Assembly: GCA_036704125.1 (NCBI GenBank)
Contig: DATNQI010000098.1
Span: forward strand, 1 to 64,000
Length of the DNA stretch: 64,000 nucleotides
DNA from: Pantanalinema sp.
Lineage (GTDB): Bacteria; Cyanobacteriota; Sericytochromatia; S15B-MN24; UBA4093
Direction of reading: 5' to 3'
The notes under the pieces are model-generated. The model did no database searches. It was not told the DNA's origin and worked only from the letters and a program-made list of their open reading frames with translations. The position numbers and the translations under genes were made by a program. This document shows, piece after piece, positions 27,927 to 30,864 of this stretch (the first letter of the stretch is position 1; each line of letters starts with the position of its first letter).

Positions 27927-28602
27927 GAGATCAATAAATCGATCCCGTAATAGTAGGGGGAGTGGAACATGGGGATAAGTGCCGGATCCCAGGCCAGGAC
28001 GCGGATCGAGGGAGTGGACCGCGGAGTGGGGAAGTCGCCGAGTTGTCCCCAGGCCCGAACCCCAGGGAACCGAGCAGCGATCATGTTCACTCCTTGTCCA
28101 CAGGCTGGAAGGGCCTTATCCCATGGCTTTCAACAGGCCTCAAACCCGCGTGACAACTCCGTCTTGGAGAATCTATCAACATGTTCTCCACAGGCCATTT
28201 ATCCCCATGACCCCGGAAACGAAGCAGGAGCGGCAGATCATGCCGGATCGCCCCCATGAGTTATCCCCAGGATCCAGGGAGGATCTCCGGGGTCTTCCCC
28301 TCCCCTTCCGCTCCTTATCCCCAGGGTTCTGCACAGCCGTCCCCAGCTTATCCACAGAAAGTCCCTTCACTTGTCCACACCATGGGGAAAGGTTGTCCAC
28401 ACGACCTCGGAAGGGAGCGGATAACCCCCGTCCAAACTTCAAATTTGGACACGATCGCCTCAAAGGCAGTAGACAAGCGAGTCGCAGCGATTTATCGAAC
28501 AGGGGTTTCAATTTGCGATCTCCCCCGAAAACGCTTGACAGCCATGGGCTCCGCTCCAAATCCCCAAGTTATCCCCAGGGTTATCCACAGCCCCCCTGTT
28601 GA
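27927..28602. repeat. oriC: oriC arm 1: 676-bp DnaA-box array between dnaN and dnaA
   Basis: This arm is directly repeated at 30189-30864 with about 93% identity by eye and constant spacing of 2,262 bp. It carries DnaA-box-like 9-mers on the plus strand: TTATCCACA at 28348 and 28581; TTGTCCACA at 28094, 28371 and 28393; TTATCCCCA at 28199, 28261, 28315 and 28569; TTGTCCCCA at 28043; TTCTCCACA at 28184. An inverted TTATCCCCA lies at 27970-27978. GTCCAAA-N7-TTTGGAC (28430-28450) is a conserved palindrome. Flanking AT-rich patches (27927-27950; AAAAAAATAT at about 28608) are unwinding candidates. No gene is supported in 27780-28662. Confidence 0.9.
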
Positions 28603-28662
28603 TAAGCAAAAAAATATCCCCTCCCCCGAAGGGGAAGGGAAGTGGGTGAATCGGCGCTTCGG

Positions 28663-30021
28663 CTAGCCCTTGATCTGGGCCGTCAGGTGCTGCAACTCGG
28701 CCACCAGGGTGGCATTGCTGGCGAGGGCCAGCTTGATCTTCTCGTGGCCGTGCATGACCGTCGAGTGGTCGCGGCCGCCGAACTCGGCGCCGATCTTGGG
28801 GAAGGAGGACTCCGTCAGCTCCCGCGAGAGGTAGATCGCGATCTGGCGTGCCCAGGCGACGTCCTTGGTGCGGCGGCTGCCGATCAAATCGCCCACGCTG
28901 AGGTGGAAATGCTCGGCGACGATCTCCTGGATCCGATCCAGGGTGATCGGCTTGCGGACCACGTTGCCCAGGATCTGCATGGCCAGATCCACGCTCGGGG
29001 GGGTGTTGTTGAGCGACGAGTAGGCCATCAGGCGGATGAAGGCGCCCTCGAGCTCGCGCACGTTGCTGCGGTAGTTGGAGGCGATGTAGCTCAAGACCTC
29101 GTAGTCCACCACCAGCCCGTCCGAGTCGGCCTTCTTCTCGAGAATCGCGATTCGCGTCTCGAGATCCGGCGCCTGGATGTCGGTGATGAGGCCCCACTCG
29201 AAGCGGCTGCGCAGGCGATCCTCGAGCGCGGAGATCTCCTTGGGCGGGCGATCGCTCGACAGGATGATCTGCTTGCCGGCCTCGTGCAGGGCGTTGAAGG
29301 TGTGGAAGAACTCTTCCTGGGTGCGCTCCTTGCCCTGGATGAACTGGATGTCGTCGATGAGCAGGAGGTCGATGTTGCGGTAGCGCGCCCTGAACTCGGC
29401 CATCCGATCCTCGCGGATCGAGTTGATCAGCTCGTTGGTGAACTTCTCGCTCGAGAGGTAGGCGACCTTGACCCGGGGGTTCTGCGCGAGCATGAAGTGC
29501 CCGATCGCGTGCATGAGGTGGGTCTTGCCGAGCCCGACGCCGCCGTAGATGAACAGGGGGTTGTAGGCCTTGGCCGGGTTCTCCGCCACGGCCAGGGCCG
29601 CCGCGTGGGCGAAGCGGCTGTGGTTGCCGACGACGAACGAGGTGAAGGTGTACTTGGGATTCAGGATCCCGTACGAAGGCTGGGGCGGAGGGCTCGCCTC
29701 GCGGGCCTGGGGCACCACCGAGGTCGCCACCGGCGGGAGATCGATCGCGTCGTCGGGAGCCGCCGGCTTATTTTCCGAGGAAGCCGCGATCGTGAAGGCG
29801 AGCCGGTACTCGGTGCCGCATGCTTCGGCCAGCGCGACGCTGAACTCGGACATGTTGCGGTGGATCCAGTCACGGGCGAAGGCGTTGGGGGTTTCGACGA
29901 TCAGGGTCTGATCGTCGAGGGTGAGCACCCGGGTGGGCTTCACGAGCGTCTCGAAACTCGTCTTGCTCAGGCGGTCCCGCAGGATGGCCAACGTCTGTTG
30001 CCAAAGTTCTTCTGCCTGCAT
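28663..30021 (-). CDS. dnaA: Chromosomal replication initiator DnaA
   Basis: This protein of about 452 residues has the four DnaA domains: the helical N terminus LWQQTLAILRDRLSKTSFET, a proline-rich linker, the AAA+ core with Walker A GGVGLGKTH and Walker B LLLIDDIQFIQGK, and the DNA-binding domain with signature GRDHSTVMHGHEKI. It binds TTATCCACA-type boxes and melts the origin. The ATG at 30021 aligns with the family start, while a TTG at 30045 would add eight residues and has a closer purine-rich GGGAAGG. The gene lies between two copies of the box array, so it sits within its own targets. Confidence 0.97.
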   Translation of the reverse strand: MQAEELWQQTLAILRDRLSKTSFETLVKPTRVLTLDDQTLIVETPNAFARDWIHRNMSEFSVALAEACGTEYRLAFTIAASSENKPAAPDDAIDLPPVATSVVPQAREASPPPQPSYGILNPKYTFTSFVVGNHSRFAHAAALAVAENPAKAYNPLFIYGGVGLGKTHLMHAIGHFMLAQNPRVKVAYLSSEKFTNELINSIREDRMAEFRARYRNIDLLLIDDIQFIQGKERTQEEFFHTFNALHEAGKQIILSSDRPPKEISALEDRLRSRFEWGLITDIQAPDLETRIAILEKKADSDGLVVDYEVLSYIASNYRSNVRELEGAFIRLMAYSSLNNTPPSVDLAMQILGNVVRKPITLDRIQEIVAEHFHLSVGDLIGSRRTKDVAWARQIAIYLSRELTESSFPKIGAEFGGRDHSTVMHGHEKIKLALASNATLVAELQHLTAQIKG

Positions 30022-30188
30022 TCGGTTCGCGGTCAACCTTCCCAAGATACGGCACGGGGGCTTTGCAAGATCGATCAGTCTACCTCCGAAACTGCTGCTC
30101 GGCTAGAGATCGATGCTTGAAGATTTCCCTTTCCCAGAGGGAGCGCCCTTTTTCCGGGCCTCTCGATCTTATTTTTACCGATCCCTGG

Positions 30189-30864
30189 GAGATCAATAAA
30201 ACGATCCCGTAATAGTAGGGGGAGTGGAACATGGGGATAAGTGCCGGATCCCAGGCCAGGACAGGGATCGAGGGAGTGGACCGTGGAGTGGGAAAGTCGC
30301 CGAGTTGTCCCCAGGCCCGAACCCCCGGGAATCACGAAGCGATCATGTTCACTCCTTGTCCACAGCCTGGAAGGGCCTTATCCCATGGCTTTCAACAGGC
30401 CCTGAAGCCGCGTGACAACTCCATCTTGGAGGATTTATCAACATGTTCTCCACAGGCCAGTTATCCCCATGAGCCCGAAAACGAAGCAGGAGCGACGGAT
30501 CATGCCGGAGCGGTTCCCCATGTTTTCCACAGGTCCCCTGGAGGATCTCCGGACTCTTCCCCTCCTCTTCCGCTCCTTGTCCCCAGGGTTCTGCACAGCC
30601 GTCCCCAGCTTATCCACAGAAAGTCCCTTCACTTGTCCACACCATGGGGAGAAGTTGTCCACACGACCTCGGAAGGGAGCGGATAACCCCCGTCCAAACT
30701 TCAAATTTGGACACGATCGCCTCAAAGGCAGTAGACAAGCGAATCGCAGCGATTTATCGAACAGGGGTTTTAATTTGCGATCGACCCCGAAAACCCTTGA
30801 CAGCCATGGGCCCCGCTCCAAATCCCCAAGTTATCCCCAGGGTTATCCACAGCCCCCCTGTTGA
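30189..30864. repeat. oriC: oriC arm 2: 676-bp DnaA-box array between dnaA and rpmH
   Basis: This is the direct copy of arm 1, upstream of dnaA on one side and rpmH on the other. Boxes: TTATCCACA at 30610 and 30843; TTGTCCACA at 30356, 30633 and 30655; TTATCCCCA at 30461 and 30831; TTGTCCCCA at 30305 and 30577; TTCTCCACA at 30446; TTTTCCACA at 30523, where arm 1 has TTATCCCCA. The palindrome GTCCAAA-N7-TTTGGAC recurs at 30692-30712. The remaining 30865-31031 is unique and should hold the rpmH promoter, with no clear hexamers. No gene is supported in 30046-31031. Confidence 0.9.

Follow-up and report, generated by a model that had tools for sequence, protein, structure and literature searches.

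The window analysed here, i.e. the whole stretch of 64,000 nucleotides, carries on its minus strand recF, dnaN, a first intergenic origin module (arm A) and dnaA in this order, followed by a second such module (arm B). The genes beyond arm B, namely rpmH, rnpA, yidD, yidC, jag and mnmE, lie on the plus strand. Coordinates of the main features, including the elements of a basal unwinding system (BUS) and the predicted AT-rich opening elements (DUE), are given in Table 1. The dnaA gene is intact, since the DnaA_N, AAA+ and C-terminal domains were all found by Pfam, and its product can be aligned nearly over its full length with the Bacillus subtilis DnaA structure 8btg. The promoter-like sequence upstream of rpmH was not found by a consensus promoter scan. 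GATC occurs 17.7 times per kb across the two intergenic gaps (27780-31031), about double the 9.8 per kb of the window, and the kilobase richest in GATC within the window begins in dnaA, at 28789. A family of short interspersed inverted repeats has three copies in the window (5886-5968, 11601-11671 and 61359-61442; 83-86% identical). The DnaA proteins of members of its phylum match named cyanobacterial records, which assigns this genome of an uncultured bacterium to the cyanobacterial phylum. No photosystem reaction-centre match was found in it, so that it probably belongs to a non-photosynthetic class, such as Sericytochromatia.

Table 1. Features of the dnaA region, with positions in the 64-kb window.
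Feature	Position	Strand	Remarks
dnaN	26676..27779	-	adjoins the DUE side of arm A
Arm A predicted DUE	27906..27955	.	least stable 50-mer, dnaN side; 0.44% of window 50-mers are less stable
Arm A, dnaA-dnaN intergenic origin module	27927..28602	-	11 TTRTCCMCA boxes; ancestral position
Arm A BUS	27948..27978	-	box TTATCCCCA at 27970-27978, degenerate box TGTTCCACT, CCCC, DnaA-trio CTACTATTA at 27948-27956
Intrinsic terminator-like hairpin and T run	28617..28641	-	between dnaA stop and arm A
dnaA	28663..30021	-	ORF reaches 30045; likely ATG start at 30021
TTTCGGAGGTAGACTGATC, dnaA-upstream	30073..30091	-	19 bp; identical block upstream of dnaA in G001
Arm B predicted DUE	30168..30217	.	least stable 50-mer, dnaA side; 0.26% of window 50-mers are less stable
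Arm B, rpmH-dnaA intergenic origin-module copy	30189..30864	-	same orientation as arm A; 10-11 boxes; derived
Arm B BUS	30210..30240	-	same as arm A BUS at 31 of 31 nt
Promoter-like TTGATC-17-TAAACT	30904..30932	+	upstream of rpmH; read by eye
rpmH	31032..31181	+	divergent from dnaA

The original prediction had described two near-identical direct arrays of 676 bp around dnaA with a constant offset of 2,262 bp and, by eye, about nine of ten bases identical. Exact ungapped alignment of the two arms confirmed this arrangement, with 627 of 676 positions identical (92.75%), no gaps and the same offset of 2262. Identity at this offset falls to background (0.1-0.46) beyond the arm ends. On the DUE side, which faces dnaN in arm A and dnaA in arm B, BLAST extends a weaker similarity by about another 40 bp, to 27886/30149, and on the opposite side similarity ends abruptly at 28602/30864. 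Searching the whole 3.5-Mb assembly with arm A as a query recovered only arm A and arm B. The arms are not one sequence assembled twice, since 49 sites distinguish them and the longest stretch without a mismatch measures 89 bp. The source is a metagenome-assembled genome (MAG) of 102 contigs, and an artefact of assembly or strain mixture might be suspected from this, but a misjoin would have to place about 720 bp exactly at that spot, and the flanks of arm B are unique (rpmH, and a dnaA-promoter block common to G001, a genome of the same family). Given the 49 differences and the unique flanks we consider such an artefact highly unlikely. Excision via the direct repeats, whose longest stretch of identity is 89 bp, would remove dnaA and is possible in principle.

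Both arms have the sequence characteristics by which a BUS-type oriC is recognized. Arm A holds 11 TTRTCCMCA boxes and arm B holds 10, or 11 if TTTTCCACA is counted, compared with the 11-12 box-like 9-mers predicted per arm, and a single further box is found in the rest of the 64 kb. The box cluster is enriched over the genome, with 21 of the 31 boxes of the assembly located within the 1.35 kb of the arms; the 10 boxes outside compare with 16 occurrences of a reversed control pattern. The description of the arms as arrays of DnaA boxes was correct with regard to the boxes but incomplete, as each arm also contains a BUS and an AT-rich DUE that had been missed. On the minus strand both arms read TTATCCCCA-TGTTCCACT-CCCC-CTACTATTA, i.e. 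a box with a spacer of 13 nt (the BUS-type oriC allows up to 16 nt) and three DnaA-trios. This architecture agrees with published BUS parameters, and 13 nt was the commonest spacer length in a published BUS survey (PMC8287927). The searched BUS pattern has only two sites in the assembly, both in the arms, and none of the other genomes of the class has it in exactly this form. DUEs were predicted from the nearest-neighbour stability of 50-mers across the window. In each arm the weakest 50-mer on the opening side belongs to the weakest 0.5% of the window and overlaps the trio, so that an unstable AT-rich DUE adjoins the trios, and the relative position of the predicted DUE is equal in arms A and B. 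The part of arm B around the BUS and near the DUE is among its best-kept stretches, with one mismatch in the first 74 bp. The proposed origin-like duplication around dnaA is borne out by these data, with both arms being origin modules that bracket an intact dnaA gene. The near-perfect palindrome GTCCAAACTT-C-AAATTTGGAC is found in both arms (28430-28450 and 30692-30712) and is not evident in G001; it is a possible candidate binding site for another origin protein.

We compared this locus with a survey of 111 dnaA loci with usable flanks, this locus included, which covered many Bacillota as well as Cyanobacteria and other phyla. Long direct repeats across dnaA were found in one of the 111 loci, namely the one described here. 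Their absence from all 110 others bears out the earlier statement that known bipartite origins do not consist of two copies of one sequence. Of 97 loci, 18 have three or more boxes on either side of dnaA, again including this one. A BUS-like element was detected among 97 dnaA loci on the dnaN side only in 22 cases, upstream only in none, and on both sides in one, which is this locus; the survey used a single strict BUS pattern that misses many origins and the 22 loci are therefore a lower bound. In the body of literature searched there was no case of duplicated oriC arms, two DUEs or two paralogous halves.

Related genomes give an indication of the direction of the duplication. The BUS is conserved in relatives of the same order or class (G001, G003, G005 and G010), with elements resembling the arm BUS, and wherever its place could be determined the array or BUS lies on the dnaN side, clearly so in G001, G003 and G010. 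In G005 the array or BUS is located on a contig that holds dnaN, without dnaA. In G010 (L122) about 18 boxes adjoin dnaN at 10311-11010, more than 4 kb from dnaA, so that the array is parted from dnaA. The only array of G001 is on the dnaN side, and its rpmH-dnaA gap is free of one. A second arm is absent in all relatives with a readable dnaA locus. The original prediction had proposed to look for the same two arms in sister genomes, and no second genome with both arms was found among 18 genomes of the class and 386 genomes of the phylum (an even sample) or in one scan of viral contigs. Given the dnaN-side position of the array or BUS in the relatives and the lone array of G001, arm A is the ancestral oriC and arm B its copy; we thus infer a duplication in the direction from A to B. 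With G001 as outgroup, arm A matches at 18 and arm B at 8 of 26 informative differences, which suggests the same direction but is not significant (two-sided p=0.076).

The fate of arm B after the duplication can be judged from the differences between the arms. Arm B could be a neutral recent duplicate, originating from a tandem duplication of arm and dnaA with later loss of the extra dnaA, in which case it would have no role and would be in the process of being lost. The restriction to one genome, the more frequent departure of arm B from G001 (8 matches vs 18) and the existence of oriC/dnaA cluster duplications in BCG Pasteur and Acidaminococcus (PMC4403523) are in line with this explanation. 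However, the 49 substitutions have accumulated with a net length change of zero over the 676 bp, the boxes and the BUS have been retained, and the differences are unevenly distributed, with 10.5% in the first 390 bp vs 2.8% in the last 286 bp (p=8e-5, for a split picked post hoc). Moreover, the sequence next to arm B showed no remnant of dnaA, and a recently lost dnaA copy at this place was rejected, as the similarity to the flank of arm A stops at 28602/30864. We regard a neutral duplicate as improbable. The better-kept last 286 bp could reflect either constraint or gene conversion. Boxes were not significantly better conserved than the remainder of the arms (3/99 vs 46/577 differing positions, p=0.09), which is suggestive only. 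The densest block of differences (28247-28280 vs 30509-30542, up to 18 in 60 bp) resembles compensating small indels and changes a TTATCCCCA box into TTTTCCACA. Both arms contain an open 127-aa ORF, but protein-coding arms were rejected, because the differences are spread evenly over the codon positions (11/11/9) and few are silent (18 amino-acid changes, 3 silent codon changes). No Rfam match to a structured RNA was found within the 64-kb window.

Arm B lies in the gap between the divergent genes dnaA and rpmH, some 100 bp upstream of TTTCGGAGGTAGACTGATC, which is probably the dnaA promoter core and is intact downstream of arm B. Arm B would therefore have been inserted upstream of dnaA's own promoter. 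This position leads to the main rival to a twin origin, according to which arm B is solely a DnaA-binding control site. Because arm B doubles the origin-linked boxes and is situated upstream of the dnaA promoter, it might titrate DnaA and tighten dnaA autorepression, while its BUS would be a passenger that stays closed in vivo. The short distance to the probable promoter, the scarcity of boxes elsewhere in the assembly (10 outside the arms) and the fact that the rpmH-side half of known bipartite origins has no DUE (PMC4285127, PMC7561715) all speak for such a control site. The good preservation of the part of arm B around the BUS and near the DUE (one mismatch in 74 bp), on the other hand, would be needless for titration, although the duplication is perhaps too young to tell. 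Overall we consider a mere control site unlikely, if less so than a neutral duplicate.

The explanation we favour, with moderate confidence and on the basis of the sequence of one MAG, is a twin origin, i.e. a bipartite-like oriC that arose by duplication and has two sites of potential unwinding. In this reading the chromosomal origin of the lineage, a BUS-type oriC situated between dnaA and dnaN, was copied as an entire module, with its orientation kept, into the rpmH-dnaA gap. As each arm keeps a box cluster, a BUS and an AT-rich opening element, both should bind DnaA and could unwind. DnaA would fill about 21 boxes across the arms (two thirds of those in the assembly), with the arms acting together, and may bridge arms A and B with dnaA in the loop, as in bipartite origins. 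Initiation would take place at arm A by default, given its ancestral position, and possibly also at arm B, whose BUS is identical to that of arm A. The presence of arm B may furthermore alter dnaA expression. GC skew, which had been suggested as a check, and fourfold-site skew revealed no switch locating initiation over 77.8 kb. We put forward more tentatively, as a proposition that is rather doubtful at this stage, that a natural bacterial chromosome carries, at a distance of 2.3 kb, two complete and paralogous origins which depend on DnaA and are both able to unwind, and that a bipartite origin has here arisen by duplication of a single-module origin.

Why dnaA splits some bacterial origins is an open question (PMC4285127). 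A locus whose second half can be recognized as a copy of the first points to one route to a split origin, in which the origin is duplicated and one of the unwinding elements is later lost. What sets the present locus apart is the occurrence of a whole origin module, including the predicted opening sequence, on each side of dnaA, whereas known split origins have the opening sequence on one side. The locus also lends itself to asking if two identical origins in close linkage are able to coexist, and by what means DnaA would select one of them.

In Pseudomonas aeruginosa paired origins are located in the rpmH-dnaA and dnaA-dnaN gaps. These are two origins on one chromosome described as ARS-active, of which only one is essential (PMC4403523), and close twin origins therefore need not both fire. 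The locus described here is similar in having two origin-like elements on a single chromosome, but the P. aeruginosa origins are not described as mutual copies. With the bipartite oriC of Bacillus subtilis, Clostridioides difficile and Helicobacter pylori (oriC1-dnaA-oriC2) it shares two box clusters split by a gene, usually dnaA, a trio and DUE placed towards dnaN, and a similar overall span. Known bipartite origins have a DUE in one sub-region only, however (PMC4285127, PMC7561715), and unwind on one side, whereas here a BUS and a DUE-like element are present on both sides, in copies that are 93% identical. Each arm for itself resembles the basal unwinding system, with a box, a degenerate tandem box, a GC-rich stretch, DnaA-trios and a 13-nt spacer, but in contrast to an ordinary BUS there are two identical ones, one on each side of dnaA. 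An oriC doubled within the chromosome is also known from the duplicated oriC/dnaA clusters of M. bovis BCG Pasteur and of Acidaminococcus fermentans, which has two dnaA genes (PMC4403523). In these organisms dnaA was doubled as well, while the present locus has two origin modules but one dnaA between them.
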